From the NCBI GenBank assembly GCA_003645255.1, contig QNES01000009.1, positions 1 through 50,337 on the forward strand: a DNA stretch of 50,337 bases. The letters are read 5' to 3'. Under the pieces are notes generated by a model. It worked only from the letters and a program-made list of their open reading frames with translations. It did not search any database and was not told the origin of the DNA. This DNA is from Gammaproteobacteria bacterium. Lineage in GTDB: Bacteria > Pseudomonadota > Gammaproteobacteria > Beggiatoales > Beggiatoaceae. Shown here piece after piece: positions 3,771 to 41,765 of this stretch (the first letter of the stretch is position 1; each line of letters begins with the position of its first letter). A program made the translations under genes and the position numbers.

Positions 3771-5087
3771 ATGGATTATTTCATTTCATTATTCATTTTT
3801 TTGATTCTATTCTTTGGAAGTACCATGCCAGTAAAAACTCAAGCTGATCAAATAAGACTTAATGCGGCTTTATCAACTCCCGTAATGTTAGCTGATAAAA
3901 AACAAAGCGTCTATTTACGGGTAGGATTGACTGGGATTCGCCTTGAAACCGAAAAAGTGGCTCCTATCAATGTCGCGTTAGTCATTGATAAATCGGGTTC
4001 GATGCAGGGTGAAAAAATTCGCAGGGCTAAGGATGCCGCTCTGATGGCGGTTGATCAATTACGCAAAAACGATATTATGGCGGTGGTGACTTATAACCAT
4101 CATGCTGAAACGCTCTTACCAGCTACTTTCGTACAAAATCAGGAAATGATAAAAACGGCTATTAATAAACTAGTCGCCGGGGGAAGTACAGCACTTTTTG
4201 ATGGTGTAGAAAAAGGGGCTAAAGAAATTCGTCAATTTTTTGATAGGAAACGAGTCAATCGAATTATTTTAGTTTCTGATGGGCTTGCTAATGTAGGTCC
4301 CAGTACGCCCGAAGACCTGGGTGTACTAGGTGCTTTGTTGGGTCAAGAAAATATCGTTGTGACAACGATGGGTTTAGGATTAGGGTATAACGAAGATTTA
4401 ATGACCCAATTAGCGAAAAAAAGTGATGGTAATCATGCCTTTATAGAAAATGCAACTGATTTAACTCGCTTTTTTGACCATGAATTTAGCGATTTATTTT
4501 CGGTCGTTTCCCAGGAAGTGAATGTCACTATTATTGGTGTAGAGGGTGTCCAACCCATTCGTGTTTTAGGAAGAGAAGCGGAAATTCATGATCAACAAGT
4601 ATTAGTCAAACTCAATCAGCTCTATAGCAATCAGGAAAAATATGTATTAGTAGAACTAGAAGTGCCGCCTGCTAATCAAGAACGTGTAATTGCTGGTGTT
4701 GCCGTTATCTACCGTCATATTGAAACTGATGTGATGGAACGTCTGAGTAGCATGGTGAGTGCGACCTTCACTGATTCACCACAATTAGTGGAAAAAAAGA
4801 CGAATGCCACAGTCATGACGGCGGCGATAGAACAATTGGCGGTGAAAAAAAATAAGCTCGCCGTTAAACTACGTGATGAGGGCAAAATAAAAGAAGCACG
4901 GAAGCTGCTCTTAGATAATGCTAATCAGCTTGCAGAAGAAGCCGCTAAATATGAATCAAAATCCTTGGAAAAACTCAAAGATATTAACCTTGATGATGCC
5001 AAGAATTTGGATGAACAATCCTGGAAAAAACAACGCAAAATGATGCGTCGTGAACAGTATAAATTGGAAAAACAGCAAAAATACTGA
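3771..5087 (+). CDS. Exported VWA-domain protein
   Basis: 438 residues. A hydrophobic signal peptide covers residues 1 to about 25 (MDYFISLFIFLILFFGS, then QADQ). The von Willebrand A domain begins around residue 65 with an intact MIDAS motif, VIDKSGSMQGEK; the T and D of the site are supplied by AGGSTALFDG and IILVSDGLANVG. A beta-rich middle region follows, and the C-terminus (from about residue 355) is highly charged and probably helical (KLAVKLRDEGKIKEARKLL, then a Lys/Arg-rich tail). The protein probably acts in the periplasm or at the envelope through metal-dependent adhesion. The same layout occurs in VWA proteins of unknown role; no partner gene is adjacent, so no pathway can be named. 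The start is supported by AGGAA nearby (3758). Confidence 0.8.
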   Translation: MDYFISLFIFLILFFGSTMPVKTQADQIRLNAALSTPVMLADKKQSVYLRVGLTGIRLETEKVAPINVALVIDKSGSMQGEKIRRAKDAALMAVDQLRKNDIMAVVTYNHHAETLLPATFVQNQEMIKTAINKLVAGGSTALFDGVEKGAKEIRQFFDRKRVNRIILVSDGLANVGPSTPEDLGVLGALLGQENIVVTTMGLGLGYNEDLMTQLAKKSDGNHAFIENATDLTRFFDHEFSDLFSVVSQEVNVTIIGVEGVQPIRVLGREAEIHDQQVLVKLNQLYSNQEKYVLVELEVPPANQERVIAGVAVIYRHIETDVMERLSSMVSATFTDSPQLVEKKTNATVMTAAIEQLAVKKNKLAVKLRDEGKIKEARKLLLDNANQLAEEAAKYESKSLEKLKDINLDDAKNLDEQSWKKQRKMMRREQYKLEKQQKY

Positions 5088-8744: not shown

Positions 8745-10871
8745 TTAATTCACCGACATTCTAACCTGTCCACTAGCTAAAGCTTGAAGTACCTTATCTT
8801 TTGCACCCATTGCAACTACTTGCCCACCATCCATCACAATCAAATACTCAACCAACGATAGCAATGAACTGCGGTGTGTAACTAATAAAAAAGTTTTTCC
8901 TTTCAAATAAGGTTGCAAACGTACCTTGAATTGTTCTTCGGCGCGATTATCCATTGAATTGGTAGGCTCATCAAATAGCAATAAAGGGGGATTATGCAAT
9001 AATGCCCTGGCTAAAACAATTGCCTGTCGCTGTCCACCAGATAAACCTTCGCCCCGTTCGTAAATAGGCATATCGAAACCTAAAGGGTGGCGATTGACAA
9101 ATTCATGGACTCCTGCTAGTTGGGCAGCGCGTAGCACGACGCTATCTTCTAAATAACTTGCGCCCATGACAATATTGTCTTTAACTGTGCCATAAAATAA
9201 TTCAATGTCTTGGGGTACATAACCAATCTGATGGCGCAATTCCGCTGGATCAATTTGGTTGTTGTCAACCCCATCTAGTAAAATACTACCCTGCTTAGGT
9301 TGATAGAGTCCAAGTATTAATTTAGCGATAGTGCTTTTACCTGAGCCAATGCGCCCGATGATTCCTATTCGCTGACCGGCTTGAATTTGAAAGGAGACTT
9401 TGGTGAGTGCCGGTAATGCTTGCTCTAGGTAACTGAAATCGACTTGTTTAAATTCAATGTTACCTTGCAAGGGAGGGCGGTTTAAAAACTTTGCGTCTCG
9501 CTCTAGCGGCATTTTCATTACCTGATTTAAGGCGCGTAACGCTGACAATGAATGATGATAACGGGTGAAAAGACTCGCTATTTGTGCTAATGGTGCAAGT
9601 GCTCGCCCAGTTAAAATGGTACAGGCAATCAATGCCCCCATCGTTAATTCACCTTCTGCAATCAAATAGACTCCATAAACAATAATCACTACAGTACTCA
9701 TTTGTTGGACAAACAAAGAAAAGTTGACGGATAATGCCGATAAAAAGCGTGATTTGAGCGAAAAATTCGCAATTTGTCCGATTAATTGTTCCCAACGTCG
9801 TTGTATTTCTCCTTCAGCCCTGGTAGTTTTAATAGTTTCCATGCCTGCGAGGGTTTCAACTAATAGGGCATGTTTTTGAGCACTGGCGCGAAAAGTGTGT
9901 TGTATCACTTTACGCAGTGGAAATTGTATGAGTATGCTGAAAGCAATTACTAACGGCATAGCATATAACGGAATAAAAGCTAACTCATGATGTAAAGCCC
10001 AGATAACAGCAATGAATAATAGGGCAAAGGGTAAATCAATCAGGGTGGTTAAAGTTGCCGAAGTGAAAAAATCGCGGAAGCTTTCAAATTCGTGTAAATG
10101 ATTAGCAAATGCACCAACGGAACGGGGATGCGCGATTCGCCTAGTGCCAAGCACCTGTTCAAAAATCATGCTACCTAATAAAATGTCCGTTTTTTTACCC
10201 GCGATGTCAACAAAATAACCGCGTAAGGTGCGTATGATGAAATCAAATCCAAATACGATAACCACGCCAATGGCTAATACCCATAAAGTTTCTATAGCAT
10301 GATTCGGCACCACGCGATCATAAACATTCATCACAAATAGCGGTGATGCCAACGCAAATAAATTAATCAACAATGAAGCAATGATCACTTCACTATAAAT
10401 AAACCAGGATTTTAATAAAGTTCCCCAAAACCAAGTATGGGGGCGGGGTATTAAGCTATCTTCAGTGCGAGCATCAAAGCTATAAGCGGAACGTGCCAAT
10501 AAAGCATAGCCACTATAATTAGCTTTTAAATCTTTAACGGAAAGTTCAAGCACCCCAGTTGAAGGTAAAATGATTTGTACATTTTTTTTATCAAGATAAT
10601 TGAGTAGTATGCAGGCTTGCCCATCTTTTAGTAGTAACACCGCAGGCAAAACTAATGCCTTCAATTTGGGAAGTCGGCGTTTGATGAGGCGGGCAGATAA
10701 ATTGGCGCGTTGCGCGGCGCGAATAAATAATTCAGGCGTAAAGCGATTATTAACCAGGGGCAAACCGGCTTTAAGTGCCTCCGCTGAGGTTGGTTGATTA
10801 AGCAGTTTACTTAAAATGACGAGACATTGTAATAAAGGATCGTCAAAGGTAGCATGTTTTTCATCTTTCAT
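8745..10871 (-). CDS. Type I secretion ABC transporter (LapB-like, fused permease/ATPase)
   Basis: 708 residues in three parts: an N-terminal C39-like domain (residues 1-130) in which no catalytic Cys-His pair is recognisable, as in exporters of RTX or large adhesin substrates; a six-helix membrane domain (about 150-440, starting near SWFIYSEVIIASLLINLFAL); and a nucleotide-binding domain with Walker A GRIGSGKST, signature LSGGQRQ, Walker B LLLFDEPTN and the switch histidine in VTHRSS. This is the LapB/HlyB class, which forms a channel with an HlyD-type adaptor and a TolC-type protein to export a large protein directly from the cytoplasm. Neither partner nor a substrate gene is adjacent. It is preceded by the minus-strand membrane pseudogene. 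Confidence 0.88.
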   Translation of the reverse strand: MKDEKHATFDDPLLQCLVILSKLLNQPTSAEALKAGLPLVNNRFTPELFIRAAQRANLSARLIKRRLPKLKALVLPAVLLLKDGQACILLNYLDKKNVQIILPSTGVLELSVKDLKANYSGYALLARSAYSFDARTEDSLIPRPHTWFWGTLLKSWFIYSEVIIASLLINLFALASPLFVMNVYDRVVPNHAIETLWVLAIGVVIVFGFDFIIRTLRGYFVDIAGKKTDILLGSMIFEQVLGTRRIAHPRSVGAFANHLHEFESFRDFFTSATLTTLIDLPFALLFIAVIWALHHELAFIPLYAMPLVIAFSILIQFPLRKVIQHTFRASAQKHALLVETLAGMETIKTTRAEGEIQRRWEQLIGQIANFSLKSRFLSALSVNFSLFVQQMSTVVIIVYGVYLIAEGELTMGALIACTILTGRALAPLAQIASLFTRYHHSLSALRALNQVMKMPLERDAKFLNRPPLQGNIEFKQVDFSYLEQALPALTKVSFQIQAGQRIGIIGRIGSGKSTIAKLILGLYQPKQGSILLDGVDNNQIDPAELRHQIGYVPQDIELFYGTVKDNIVMGASYLEDSVVLRAAQLAGVHEFVNRHPLGFDMPIYERGEGLSGGQRQAIVLARALLHNPPLLLFDEPTNSMDNRAEEQFKVRLQPYLKGKTFLLVTHRSSLLSLVEYLIVMDGGQVVAMGAKDKVLQALASGQVRMSVN

Positions 10872-36148: not shown

Positions 36149-36460
36149 GAACATATCGTATAGAAAACCTTTCATTAAGGTGTTAAAGTGACCCGTCTTG
36201 GTCACACTTGTCGGACGAAATGGCTAATTCTTTATTGAATTAGGAATTAGCTGTTTTGCTTGCATAACTGAATAAAATATGAATCAGAGTAAAATTATTT
36301 CTAACTAATCCTTGTTCCCTCTACTCTATGTTACGTTTTTTTTGCCGCGCAATCTAACCCAACCTACTTTGCTTAGAGAGTTATGTGCATAGAATAGGGG
36401 AAAAGAGGGAATGTTATCTGCAAACTATGGTCATCAATATGAAAAAACAGGAAGTTGCAA

Positions 36461-37438
36461 ATGAATGAAGTGATTGTTCACCAAGTAGATATTACACACT
36501 ACTGTTTGGTGGAACTCTCAAAACTTGCCGACCAGGCAAAACCCTTTTACGACTGGGTGGAAAAAACAGCAAAAAGGTTAACTGGCTCACACAAAGAGCT
36601 AAATGAAATCCTAATGTCAGCGAACAAAACTGACATCGTTTCCATTATTAATGCGTGCTATCACGAAGTAGAAGAAAAGCGCCCTTTGCTCTTTGATGGA
36701 ATTGGAAGGGTTTATCCCCACGCCAAGGCATGTTTCTATTTTTTTGCTTGGATTATTAGGGATGCCCCTCAACAAAGATTAGTACCTCTAATAGCCCGAA
36801 TGAGACAATTAGAAAATCTTGATAAGATAGTTGCGGAAACTGACACTCTGGTTGGGTTGATACTTGAATATAGGTCATCTGTCCGAAGTTTTTGCTGGTT
36901 AACAGTGCGAGAGGTGGTCATGGATCGCCTTGAAGGTTCTCGGCGCAGCATCAAAGGGCATCATCTTGAAGCCAGTATACGAACGGCCATAATTACAGCT
37001 TTTCAAAACTATTATTCGATTCATGGAAATTATGGCAAGTACAAGAAAGTTACTATTGCTGATAAACAAATAAAAATAGGTAATCACACTATTGATGTTT
37101 CCGTAGGACTGATGCCTTCAGATGATAGCCCAATACAAACACTCTTAATGCCAATTAAAACAAGAGAGACTGAGGGCGGAGGGCATTCACATATATTCAC
37201 AAGGGACATAATTGCTGCTGTTCGAGAACTGAAAGATGATAAGAGCAAATATCATATGATCGCGGTTATAGTAGCACTCAATTGGTCCATATCTGAACTT
37301 AGAAATATTGATAACCAGATTGATAAGGTTTTTCATTTCAATATGAATCCAAATAAGTTTGTAGGATTTGACGAAGCCTCTCAAATTGAGTTGAACAAGT
37401 ATATTCAAGGAATTTTGGATAATGGTCGATATCAGTAA
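36461..37438 (+). CDS. Putative type II restriction endonuclease
   Basis: 325 residues from ATG 36461 (AGGAAG 7 bases upstream; TTG 36455 is an alternative). It overlaps a DNA methyltransferase gene by 17 bases, the strongest argument for its role. A PD-(D/E)XK-like centre may be IDVSVGLMPSDD followed by LMPIKTRETEGGGHSHIFTR. The rest is helical at the N-terminus (residues 1-150). Of known families the closest in my memory is the XcyI/Cfr9I group (CCCGGG), but I cannot verify that. It cuts unmethylated foreign DNA if active. Confidence 0.6.
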   Translation: MNEVIVHQVDITHYCLVELSKLADQAKPFYDWVEKTAKRLTGSHKELNEILMSANKTDIVSIINACYHEVEEKRPLLFDGIGRVYPHAKACFYFFAWIIRDAPQQRLVPLIARMRQLENLDKIVAETDTLVGLILEYRSSVRSFCWLTVREVVMDRLEGSRRSIKGHHLEASIRTAIITAFQNYYSIHGNYGKYKKVTIADKQIKIGNHTIDVSVGLMPSDDSPIQTLLMPIKTRETEGGGHSHIFTRDIIAAVRELKDDKSKYHMIAVIVALNWSISELRNIDNQIDKVFHFNMNPNKFVGFDEASQIELNKYIQGILDNGRYQ

Positions 37439-38393
37439 AATAGTCAACAAGGTCATTCTTGGCGACATTCGTACTATCGCAGCAAGCATACCTGATAATC
37501 TTATCCAAAGCATAATAACTAGCCCACCCTATTTCGGACACAGAAATTACACTGGAGAAGAGGAATGCGAATATGAGATAGGCAGAGAAAGCAGCCTAGA
37601 GGATTATGTCGCAAATATCGTTTCGTGCTTTAGTGTGATAAAGTCAAAACTCTGTGATGATGGATTGCTTTGGCTTAACTTAGGAGACACATATCGAAAT
37701 AAAGAACTTCAAGGGGTTCCTTGGCGTGTAGCATTTGCTCTCAAGGAAAGTGGCTGGATTCTGCGTAGTGATATAATCTGGAAAAAGCCAAATGCTATGC
37801 CTTCTTCAGTAAAAAACCGACCCACCACGGATCATGAATACATTTTTCTTTTTTCCAAATCAAGCAATTACTACTATGATGCAGATTCCATAAGAGAGCC
37901 ACATGTTACATTTACAGAAAATTCAAAAATGAGGGGGGGAAGAAATCATTTAGGGAAACGGAATGGCACACCGGAAAATGGCAAAAATTCAGGTGACCAG
38001 AACTTACACAATGGTAGATGGGATCAAGCCTTTCATCCTAAAGGTAGAAATAAAAGGACTGTTTGGGAGATTCCTTTAGGAAAATTTATGGAGGCACATT
38101 TTGCCGTTTATCCTGAATTTTTGGTCGAAACTTGTCTATTAGCTTCGACTAGGAAAGGAGACATTGTTTTTGATCCGTTCGCAGGTTCAGGCACAACCGG
38201 TGTGGTAGCTATAAAAAACGAAAGGAGATTTATAGGTTGCGATCTTGTAAAGGAATATCAAGAAATGGCACAAAAAAGAATTGATGAAATCGTGGCTCAA
38301 CCAAGTCTCTTTTCTGCGGAACGGAATTTGCAATCCCGCCTTACGTTAGTTAAAACAGCTCAATTCGATGCGCCGTCCAAGATTAAAAATTAA
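37422..38393 (+). CDS. Beta-class DNA methyltransferase, probably cytosine-N4
   Basis: 323 residues. The catalytic motif TSPPYFGHRNY (about residue 34) precedes the AdoMet motif DPFAGSGTTGVVAIKNERRF (about residue 247), the order of the beta class; SPPY is typical of N4-cytosine enzymes. A target-recognition region lies between them (residues ~130-215). It overlaps the endonuclease gene, so both are expressed together; unlike many systems no C-protein regulator is seen. The start ATG is inside the endonuclease frame. It protects host DNA at the shared recognition site. Confidence 0.9.
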   Translation: MVDISKIVNKVILGDIRTIAASIPDNLIQSIITSPPYFGHRNYTGEEECEYEIGRESSLEDYVANIVSCFSVIKSKLCDDGLLWLNLGDTYRNKELQGVPWRVAFALKESGWILRSDIIWKKPNAMPSSVKNRPTTDHEYIFLFSKSSNYYYDADSIREPHVTFTENSKMRGGRNHLGKRNGTPENGKNSGDQNLHNGRWDQAFHPKGRNKRTVWEIPLGKFMEAHFAVYPEFLVETCLLASTRKGDIVFDPFAGSGTTGVVAIKNERRFIGCDLVKEYQEMAQKRIDEIVAQPSLFSAERNLQSRLTLVKTAQFDAPSKIKN

Positions 38394-38590: not shown

Positions 38591-38626
38591 TGTTGGTTGG
38601 TGGGCAATAAAAACACGTTGCCCACC

Positions 38627-38752
38627 CTACATAGCTTTAGCGTCTTCGTTCATCACTTGCATAAATGCCCCAACCTGCATTAACAAAATGCAATCGGGGG
38701 CTTGTTGTTTGAGTTCGTGGTAATGTATGATTAATTTTTGGGAAATAGCCAT
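38627..38752 (-). pseudogene. MutS-domain-I fragment, DGR accessory (msl-like)
   Basis: 41 codons: MAISQKLIIHYHELKQQAPD ... ILLMQVGAFMQVMNEDAKAM, then TAG. It aligns with the first part of the MutS mismatch-binding domain (YxxxKxxxPDxLLxxxxGxFxxxxxxDAK). MutS-like msl genes are among the accessory genes reported next to DGR reverse transcriptases. The reading stops where a GGTGGGCAA palindrome (38598-38629) begins, so the end was probably lost by insertion or deletion. Confidence 0.6.
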
Positions 38753-38801
38753 TGCTTAATGTCCATGTAATTCATTAGAAATTCGATTTTTTCAAAAAAT
38801 T

Positions 38802-38810
38802 TGTTATAAT
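38802..38810 (+). promoter_or_regulatory. Extended -10 element in front of the template repeat
   Basis: TGTTATAAT, a perfect -10 with the TGN extension; the -35 region is weak. It lies about 75 bases upstream of the template repeat and could start its RNA in the + direction. Confidence 0.4.
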
Positions 38811-38881
38811 TTAGTGATACGTCAGATAGATCACCTTACCGATTTTTACTTTTCTCTCGGAGAGGGTAAAAACGGGGTAGG

Positions 38882-38976
38882 CACTTCCGAGTGCTGCGTG
38901 GTGGTTCGTGGAACAACAACCCGACCAACGCCCGTACCGACAACCGTAACGACAACTATGGTTTCCGTGTGGCTGC
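38882..38976 (+). other. DGR template repeat (TR)
   Basis: GC-rich block that would read FRVLRGGSWNNNPTNARTDN / RNDNYGFRVA, the end of an FGE-sulfatase-type (C-type-lectin fold) domain. It is not an open gene: the frame has a TAA at 38867-38869 shortly before and no start context. Seven AAC codons sit at the positions that vary in DGR targets. AAC in the template lets adenine mutagenesis reach many amino acids while avoiding stops. The 3' part TATGGTTTCCGTGTGGCTGC would be the initiation-of-mutagenic-homing counterpart. Ends are approximate. Confidence 0.7.
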
Positions 38977-39193
38977 GCTTACTCTTCATGGTCAGAGCCG
39001 GTTAATGCGAATTAGCCGGGCGTACAGGAGAAGAGTCCAGACCTACTCCGGTGATGAGGGCGACTTCATCCGAATATCAAACCTGATTGAGCGGCTTGGT
39101 AAGCATGATGCTGAAGACTCGTTCTAATCTTTTTCGTTCCCTTACGGCATTTTGGAAGCCTTGGCTACAAAATGGCTGTTCGGGAACGCCCTT

Positions 39194-40241
39194 CTAAAAA
39201 ATCAGCTTGTCAAAAATTTTTTCCCGCAATCGCCAAGTATCCCCATGTTCCAAATGCGCCACCCAACTACAAATAGACTGAGAAACCTCCCGAATGGTTA
39301 TTTTACCCTGGGCAAGATCAGCCTGTAAATGGCGTAATCGCCGCCTGGCACGTCGCAAATTTTCCCTGTACCCGAACACAATGCGGAAAAACGCGAAAAC
39401 CCAGGAAATTTGCACCGTGTTTAGCTTCAATAAACTGACTTTTAATAGGATGAATTTTTAACCTTAACGTGACAAGATATTCCTCAATAGCCAGTCGCGC
39501 CCTTTTAAGTAAAGCATCATCATCCGAAAATAACGCAAAATCATCAACATAACGCACATATTGGGTTATTTTTAAATTTTCCTTAATAAAATGATCAAGC
39601 CCATTGAGATAAACATTAGCAAAAAATTGGCTTGTCAAATTACCTATCGGCAGCCCATGTCGCCGACTTTGCGGCGTTAATAAATCATCCCCCGGAAAAA
39701 AAGCCACCACCGGTATTTGTGGATTACTGTTATCAATAATCTTATCAATCAACCAGAGTGTATCAGGGCATTTTATTTTACGGCGGATTAATGATTTTAA
39801 AATGGCATGATCAATACTTGGAAAATATTTTTGAATATCGCATTGTAAAATATAGCGATTAGAACGTGCAAATTTGATAAAACGCTGCAAAGCTCTATGC
39901 GTTCCAAAGCCCGTTCGATTAGCATAAGATTCTGTGACAAAAGTTCGCTCAAAAATAGGTATAATAATATTGCAAAGCGCGTGATGTACTACCCTTTCCC
40001 GATAGGGTGCGGCTGAAATTAAACGGGGCTTTGGTTCTTTAATTTCAAAAGTGGTATAAGCCCCAGGTTGATAAATTTTGGCATTTAACGCATTTTGTAA
40101 TTGAAATAGCGTATCTTCCAAATGGTGGTTAAAAGCTAACACATTGTTTTGATAACGCTTGCCCTTTTGCGCATTTTTGGCAGCAATTAATAAATTTTCA
40201 AATGCCGTGATTTTGGGAAATAAATGACCATATCGTTTCAT
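39194..40241 (-). CDS. DGR reverse transcriptase, frameshifted near the 3' end
   Basis: The first frame (40241-39318) holds the polymerase: [54 protein letters not shown] and [18 protein letters not shown], in place of QGxxxSP, is the motif of DGR reverse transcriptases. The frame breaks at GVFPHCVR; dropping one G from the GGG at 39371-39373 (C on the + strand) continues into [20 protein letters not shown] and on to the stop at 39194, for about 349 residues, a normal length. It copies TR RNA into mutated cDNA. The ATG overlaps the avd stop by 4 bases. The shift may be a real mutation or a read error. Confidence 0.88.
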
Positions 40242-40582
40242 CTATTTGCCCTCTGTTGTTGCTTAATCCATTGCCCCAGATTTTGACCGATTTCATGAAG
40301 GTGTTGCATCACATAGTGATAATGTTTAGTTGAAAGCAACTCAAAATCATGGAGTAAACGGGTTTGATAACGGAGGATACTTAATTTACCGTTTAGCGTT
40401 TTTAATAAATTTAGCTTGTTGATAGCATATTGCGCGGTAATGAATCCCTCTAATAAACCGTATAATTCGGTTATAATTCTATCACCTAGCCCAAATTTGT
40501 GATTTTTAGGCAAACGATTTAAAATAGGGATATACCATTTAATTAAATCATAAGTTTTTTGGATAACGGGTAAATCATTCAT
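40238..40582 (-). CDS. avd: DGR accessory variability determinant (Avd-like four-helix protein)
   Basis: 114 residues from ATG 40582 ([20 protein letters not shown]). Segments [20 protein letters not shown] and [20 protein letters not shown] are typical of Avd, a basic, barrel-shaped pentamer of four-helix bundles that binds the reverse transcriptase and template RNA. A longer frame upstream (to 40720) overlaps the divergent target-like gene and is not used. It overlaps the reverse transcriptase gene by 4 bases. The pair alone would make the core enzyme of the DGR. Confidence 0.87.
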
Positions 40583-40601
40583 TTTTTCAAAGGTAAAATT
40601 T

Positions 40602-41393
40602 ATGACACTCAAATTATTGATTTTAGCGGTATTATTTATTTTAAGTGGCGGAGCAGCCTTTTCCGAATATTTCAAAGGCCATAAATTGCTGTCTTTACTG
40701 GCGACGATAGTTGCTATCATTGCGACTTTTTATCTGTTTCAAGACATTTATGATGATCTCAAACAACCGAGTTCATCGACTCAATCACCAACTGTGTCAG
40801 AAATTGTTACGACAGTTGAACCAACTCTACAAGTCGTCAATCCACCCGAAGAAATCCCTATCAAGGTGACAGGCGATTTCGCGCCTTATTTTCAACCCAA
40901 GCAAGATATGTTTGAAACGACGGCGGCTTTTCAATCCCGACGGCATCAATTATTACAGCAATTTAATGCGCAAGTCAAGCAGCGCAATTTGGATTATCAA
41001 GCTGGTGTCTTGCGTTTAGTTCATTATAATGCGGATGCACAAACCTTTAAAGTCAATTTAGATTGGCAAGCCGCCTGGGTAAAGCCGTTTTTTGGAAAAT
41101 TGCAAAATAAGGGTACGGTTAAAGTGGGCGTTAAAGCCGCTAAACAGATTTATCAAGCGGGTCCAAACAAGCCCTTATTCATCACAGCGAATTTAAAGGA
41201 CAATCAAGTTGAAATACAAGGGCAGATGGTAGAACAAGGTCAAGCCTATTCAATTCTTTTAATCCCATTTCCCAAAATGGTAAAAATACCGGCAGGACGA
41301 TTTCGGATGGGCGATATTCAAGGTGCTGGTAATAGTAATGAAAAACGAATAATTGGGGTCAGAGTAAAATTCATAAGAATTTACAGCGCGTGA
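40602..41393 (+). CDS. DGR target-like membrane protein, cut off at its FGE-sulfatase domain
   Basis: 263 residues. Two hydrophobic helices at the N-terminus (LLILAVLFILSGGAAF; LLSLLATIVAIIATFYLF) are followed by a linker and a beta-rich region (PYFQPKQDMFETTAAFQSRR ... FKVNLDWQAAWVKPFFGKLQ). Near residue 225, VKIPAGRFRMGDIQG begins an FGE-sulfatase domain, the domain that carries variable repeats in many DGR targets. After NSNEK the reading leaves the family (RIIGVRVKFIRIYSA) because a GGGGTCAGAGTAAAATTC palindrome is inserted. About 200 residues including any variable repeat are missing. It is divergent from avd with 19 bases between start codons. Confidence 0.75.
   Translation: MTLKLLILAVLFILSGGAAFSEYFKGHKLLSLLATIVAIIATFYLFQDIYDDLKQPSSSTQSPTVSEIVTTVEPTLQVVNPPEEIPIKVTGDFAPYFQPKQDMFETTAAFQSRRHQLLQQFNAQVKQRNLDYQAGVLRLVHYNADAQTFKVNLDWQAAWVKPFFGKLQNKGTVKVGVKAAKQIYQAGPNKPLFITANLKDNQVEIQGQMVEQGQAYSILLIPFPKMVKIPAGRFRMGDIQGAGNSNEKRIIGVRVKFIRIYSA
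41351..41382. repeat. REP/RAYT-type palindrome end in the target gene
   Basis: AATTGGGGTCAGAGTAAAAT then TCATAAGAATTTAC; GTAAAATTC and GAATTTAC form an almost perfect stem. GGGGTCAGAGTAAAATT ends are typical of REP sequences handled by IS200-like transposases. Confidence 0.55.
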
Positions 41394-41765
41394 GCAGCCC
41401 TTAGAAATACTCTTTTTGGCAAAAATAGTATTTCTTGAAGTATCGATGTTTAAAAACAAGCCGAAAAAATATAGGTTGCCTTAGAAATACTATTTTTGGC
41501 AAATATTTCGGGCAAGCCTTTTAACTTTAAAAACTTGAATATCAAGTTAAAGCCCTTAGAACTTCACAAAATATTTATACTCAAAAATAATTTATTTACC
41601 ATGAATGACTTAATCTAAATTAAATCACCAGGCACCAATACTTCAGATGAAAGAACGATATACTTAAAAATAGGGACAGATCACATTTTAGCATAAAACG
41701 TGGTCTGTCCCCTCTTATTATTCGCTTTCAGTGAATTGCATCATTAATTATTAGACAGTCAATTT
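41394..41765. other. Repeat-filled spacer behind the truncated target gene
   Basis: No gene. It contains two AGAAATACTATTTTTGG-type repeats (41401-41436 and 41483-41505), AT-rich sequence, and a 40-base hairpin at 41674-41712 with arms GGGACAGATCAC and GTGGTCTGTCCC, a REP-like element. No FGE coding sequence could be found in any frame. Confidence 0.7.

Follow-up and report, generated by a model that had tools for sequence, protein, structure and literature searches.

An inverted, trans-acting DGR in a Beggiatoaceae-type bacterium, probably inactivated recently

The window analysed here is a 50,337-nt stretch of a genome assembled into 313 contigs (4.4 Mb, 96.67% complete). At 38.8-40.6 kb it carries a diversity-generating retroelement (DGR), a set of genes that deliberately varies parts of selected proteins, here made up of a gene for a reverse transcriptase (RT), an FGE-type template repeat (TR) and a gene for Avd. 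In window coordinates, the locus has these features:

38801-38886, + strand: 5' leader of the template RNA unit (box, hairpin, conserved stretch)
38887-38978, + strand: TR, AAC-rich and FGE-type, coding RVLRGGSWNNNPTNARTDNRNDNYGFRVAA
38966-39132, + strand: conserved structured RNA (Sp-like) downstream of the TR, with covariation
39138-39192, + strand: 3' hairpin closing the template RNA unit, outer stem TTCCC..GGGAA, abutting the RT 3' end
39194-39365, - strand: RT C-terminus in a shifted frame beyond a 2-nt gap, well conserved
39318-40241, - strand: DGR RT open reading frame, 307 aa as read (full-length relatives, about 347-375 aa)
40238-40585, - strand: Avd (accessory variability determinant), with a 4-nt ATGA overlap with the RT start
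40602-41393, + strand: truncated local target, the membrane-anchored N-terminal part of an FGE protein
41347-41379 and about 41393-41440, unstranded: dispersed short repeats, at which FGE homology ends

The RT contains the motifs IGNLTSQ (39627-39647) and YVDD (39540-39551). Its top PDB match was the RT chain of 8ub7 (E 2.4e-46), 30 orders of magnitude ahead of the runner-up (2.5e-16); chain B of 8ub7 carries the name Avd, and we take the entry to be the BPP-1 bRT-Avd complex. In an RT tree, the window RT fell among RTs of DGRs with a TR and a variable repeat (VR), from Beggiatoaceae and cyanobacteria. The original prediction of a DGR RT with these two motifs is thus borne out by sequence, PDB match and tree position. 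The proposed coupling of an Avd gene to the RT also held, given the start overlap and a match to NCBIfam NF033474 (DivGenRetAVD) at 131.5 bits, above the cut-off of 80; the Avd further matched Pfam PF22296 (bAvd, E 3.3e-19) and, in the PDB, 4dwl and 8ub7_B.

As assembled, the RT is not intact over its full length. A 2-nt gap relative to Candidatus Parabeggiatoa HSG14 abolishes the frame near 39366-39370, after residue about 292 of about 350, and may be an assembly error. Comparison with HSG14 gave a dN/dS of 0.09 for RT residues 1-291 and of 0.16 for Avd, values that point to purifying selection on both genes. Because of this low dN/dS, and because the tail beyond the gap is still conserved, the RT damage must be recent if it is not an assembly error. 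The shifted-frame tail is most likely what had been read as an msl-like remnant. That reading failed: none of the region's ORFs tested matched MutS in Pfam, and we rejected a MutS-like gene, as the coding stretch 39194-39430 (- strand) encodes the C-terminus of the RT itself, out of frame.

The local target-like gene is cut just past the start of FGE, as had been predicted. It had no match in Pfam; residues 1-256 are 55-58% identical to three Thioploca proteins, one of which (L042) is DGR-linked, lying beside the Thioploca Avd and RT. A search of the own genome with 41340-41760 as query returned 54 matches, the window itself counted.

The TR occupies essentially the position at which an AAC-rich FGE-type template had been placed (38882-38976). 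Its leader holds a TATAAT-like box at about 38805-38810, which we would guess to be a promoter, a hairpin (TTTTTAC..CTCTCGGAGAGGG.TAAAAA) and a conserved GGGGTAGGCACTTCC from 38874; GGGGTAGGCAC and a 5' hairpin also stand ahead of the TR in HSG14 TR1 and TR2. Scans for promoters and terminators gave matches no more frequent than in shuffled sequences. The structured RNA shows compensatory changes at 21 of its 36 consensus pairs (21 sequences) and had no match in Rfam. With the model CM R1, the window copy, which was in the seed, scored 160 bits, among the best copies; the model found a single copy in the own genome, and 10 of the 58 genomes searched had copies. Counterparts of the 3' hairpin occur with HSG14 TR1 and TR2 and in Thiomargarita nelsonii.

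No VR was found in the window. A search of the 4.4-Mb own genome with the TR matched the TR itself and sites on contigs C144 and C119, so that the RT locus and its two matches lie on three separate contigs. A pattern with the template-A positions left free retrieved exactly the TR, C119 and C144 from the 4.4 Mb, and the reversed-pattern control retrieved none. In the C144 VR, mismatches occupy 7 of 20 template adenines and 2 of 73 other positions (7/9 at A; hypergeometric p 2.2e-4); in the C119 VR, they occupy 10 of 20 adenines and 2 of 73 other positions (10/12 at A; p 1.2e-6). Non-A positions of the TR and the VRs are nearly identical, whereas many windows of the gene bodies show about 45-80% identity. 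The C119 target is a Ser/Thr kinase-FGE protein of 1028 aa and the C144 target a caspase-FGE protein, both with PF03781 (FGE) at the C-terminus and the VR at the FGE 3' end; the FGE gene family has 11 matches in the own genome. In HSG14, local VRs flanking the RT sit on the same two architectures, kinase-FGE and caspase-FGE (53% and 43% identical). Both C119 and C144 genes look sensor-like.

Two A-specific VR matches on other contigs mean that the cassette acted in trans on at least two genes. The search that the original prediction had proposed, for A-specific matches at FGE 3' ends, therefore gave two clear matches, and its claim of no local VR was correct. The genome has just one TR; DNA match, A-free pattern and RNA model each failed to find a second in it. 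A DGR without a local VR is thus shown by genome search to be trans-acting, a point that the window alone could not settle. By analogy with the family, RT and Avd would associate with the structured RNA transcribed from the TR unit (about 38.8-39.2 kb, + strand). They would then copy the TR into cDNA with errors at adenines, and this mutated cDNA would replace the 3' ends of genes elsewhere that encode FGE domains (C-type lectin fold). Because the TR is on the strand opposite the RT, the template RNA cannot be part of the RT mRNA and must come from a transcript of its own.

This layout, with TR and RNA on the + strand and RT on the - strand, recurs as an opposite-strand arrangement in the HSG14 and Thioploca orthologues. 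Among 46 RT-near RNA units in the clade, 40 lie after the RT and one before it, all on its strand; on the opposite strand, three lie downstream (window, HSG14 and Thioploca) and two upstream. The three downstream-inverted RTs are monophyletic (97/96), and the inversion was therefore inherited; across the RT tree, built without the published group 4 RTs (Shewanella, Vibrio, Photobacterium), inversion arose at least twice. Mismatches between VR and TR number 15 at A and none elsewhere in Thioploca, and 12 and 1, 16 and 2, and 16 and 3 in HSG14. Since the differences of several VRs from the TR are almost confined to A, the inverted layout works in both HSG14 and Thioploca, where the VRs look freshly written. 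We conclude that the DGR is real, trans-acting and inverted. In Thioploca (G021; L124-L128), some VRs (L126-L128) exceed the present TR by 6 nt, which suggests either a TR whose length shifts with time or the existence of further TRs. Inverted repeats at 38794-38809 and 39207-39222 were considered as a relic of the inversion and set aside; at 16 nt and 81% identity they are short and A/T-rich, and could be due to chance.

Template units also occur without a nearby RT. Eighteen RNA copies in 14 of 35 genomes had no RT within 3 kb, some of them weak, near a contig end or without a TR. At least seven adjoin an N-rich TR with an A-mutated VR nearby (L195 = G034:C114, L182, L183, L184, L186, L180 and L196), and mismatches at the VRs of these seven units fall at A in 16/16, 15/15, 13/14, 11/12, 11/13, 14/17 and 6/7 cases. 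One such unit is C114 of HSG14, part of whose non-A signature is shared by three HSG14 VRs. These units would be satellite DGRs that need an RT in trans; RT-less DGR loci have been reported in Thiohalocapsa (PMC10907252). Taken with the conserved inversion, RT-less template units show that template RNA and RT can exist as separate units. Weaker RNA-model matches (L188, L189 and L191-L194) have no N-rich TR just upstream and are possibly decayed or dispersed copies, for which the 70 copies in Nodularia offer a comparison (PMC3610870).

Both VRs of the own genome carry 24 nt (8 codons, in frame) that the window TR lacks, with the gap at TR 38936-38940, and both have T where the TR has C at 38931. 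The SW-to-GFR spacing, counted in residues, is 24 in 31 of 40 clade TRs and 22-26 in all except the window TR, where it is 16; in the own FGE genes measured, both VRs included, it is 24-25. Internal TR deletions alone do not stop homing in BPP-1 (pMX-deltaTR23-96, PMC3240598), and a working cassette with the window TR is therefore expected to write shortened VRs. No VR lacking the 24 nt was found in the own genome, which suggests that mutagenic retrohoming has not taken place since the TR deletion. We infer that the TR and RT losses and the truncation of the local target postdate the last successful write: the TR would then have lost its 24 nt and the RT shifted its frame while the last products remained in the genome. 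RT and RNA had no match in the two other genomes searched in the genus, in keeping with ongoing loss of the system there. The RT frameshift, the 24-nt shortfall of the TR and the opposite strands of TR and RT had all escaped the original prediction.

The cassette is probably dead or dying in this genome. We hold with good confidence that this locus in a Beggiatoaceae-type bacterium represents the core of a trans-acting DGR, recently inactivated; we would then be seeing a DGR shortly after it broke, its last products not yet gone from the genome. The original prediction had offered trans action or decay as alternatives, and both apply; its MutS-like component was wrong.

Other readings of the locus were weighed. 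That it is not a DGR at all, the FGE-like stretch being a broken FGE gene and the VR match ordinary paralogy, might be suggested by the FGE family of 11 matches, but it is scarcely credible with mismatches at adenines and non-A positions almost identical against far more divergent gene bodies, an RT and Avd of DGR type, and a covarying DGR-linked RNA after the TR. The DGR might instead be fully active, with the 24-nt TR gap and the RT frameshift arising as sequencing or assembly errors: neither lesion is large, the TR gap keeps the frame, RT and Avd are under purifying selection, and the structured RNA still ranks among the best copies at 160 bits. We think this unlikely, as it needs two independent errors within 450 nt, the target is also truncated, at repeats spread across the genome, and the two other genomes searched in the genus are without RT and RNA.

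The window TR might also be an old side copy, the C119 and C144 VRs having been written from another, unassembled satellite TR with the RT acting in trans. The two VRs do share the T at 38931 and the 24-nt stretch that the window TR lacks, HSG14 offers a parallel in its RT-less second TR (C114) and VRs with part of the C114 non-A signature, and similar RT-less units occur in several cyanobacteria. An assembly that is 96.67% complete in 313 contigs may moreover lack an intact second TR or RT. However, the own genome has only one structured RNA copy and one TR match, and we regard this origin of the VRs as improbable, preferring the reading of a recently inactivated trans-acting DGR.

A degenerate 7-8-nt CCCTTT-like pyrimidine repeat lies on the coding strand no more than a few tens of bases past nearly all VRs of the RT clade, and is absent after TRs and in distant DGRs. 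The repeat sites are:

L054 (C119), about 4066-4110
L053 (C144), about 9610-9670, - strand
L040-L102, VR flanks

The best 50-nt pyrimidine fraction was 0.754 in VR flanks (n=57, including outgroup RTs without the repeat), 0.542 in TR flanks (n=42) and 0.591 in the 3' flanks of the loci's other genes (n=600); the p value of VR flanks against these last, 1.9e-20, overstates independence because the loci are related. In the own genome both VR genes carry the repeat (fractions 0.92 and 0.84), and of the other own FGE genes measured only L010 comes near (0.78); it is perhaps a retired target. No conserved BPP-1-like hairpin was found directly after the VRs; a GGCA-loop hairpin after C144 was discarded, as C119 does not share it. 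Keyword searches of the literature found no mention of a VR-flanking pyrimidine repeat, which is weak evidence of novelty.

We propose that the pyrimidine repeat may be a homing signal. Tentatively, the clade's DGR may be modular and work in trans. Its template RNA (TR plus covarying RNA) would form a gene of its own, open to inversion, to separation from the RT and to multiplication at other sites, and its targets would be marked in the DNA by a CCCTTT-like repeat just after the VR, which would replace the BPP-1 hairpin/cruciform as homing signal. Should the repeat be such a signal, it would account for the ability of a single RT to reach many scattered targets in multicellular bacteria, and it would be a simple marker for locating them.

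The kind of system is already known; what merits further attention are the RNA units found across the clade and the repeat that flanks the VRs. Inverted DGRs, a rare layout, form 'group 4' of DiGReF (Shewanella baltica, Vibrio, Photobacterium), in which RT and TR are transcribed separately (PMC3521204), and the window resembles them in its opposite strands and separate transcription. Group 4 nevertheless puts TR, VR and target together opposite the RT, whereas in the window the TR unit stands alone and converges on the RT, with VRs at remote sites. Yan et al. 2019 also list an RT-inverted pattern, G5 (PMC6642488). Cyanobacterial DGRs with remote variable proteins (PMC7517822; Nodularia DGR1, PMC3610870) have RTs about 70% identical to the window's and, as in the window, FGE/CLec targets with remote VRs. 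As in the window, the template RNA is probably its own transcript, with a strong start site 199 nt after the RT in Nodularia (PMC3610870). Nostoc punctiforme has an intact DGR of this clade that is expressed and diversifying (PMC12691664). The difference lies in the order, as the RNA unit of most relatives follows the RT on the same strand (40/46 RT-linked units).

Among the DGRs of multicellular bacteria, Thiohalocapsa PB-PSB1 (RT clade 5; PMC10907252) shares with the window conflict-type target domains, here caspase and kinase, as well as RT-less DGR loci and decay at MITE-like repeats. It has several RTs per genome, whereas the window genome has one RT, an inverted TR and damage inside the TR. 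The BPP-1 phage DGR (PDB 8ub7) has a homologous RT and Avd and a structured RNA 3' of the TR, but its order is Avd-TR-Sp-RT on one strand, while the window TR lies opposite the RT. In BPP-1 the VR is followed 4 bp away by a hairpin/cruciform (PMC3240598); here the pyrimidine repeat follows the VRs.

Adjoining the DGR at 36455-38393 is an intact-looking type II restriction-modification pair (PADLOC: REase_II, E 1.3e-81; MTase_II, E 1.4e-92). Ahead of the TR, 38600-38640 holds a short repeat, GGTGGGCAAT..ACACGTTGCCCACCCTAC, and repeats like it (GTGGGCAA..TTGCCCACC) occur in HSG14 (L112) and near the C119 VR.
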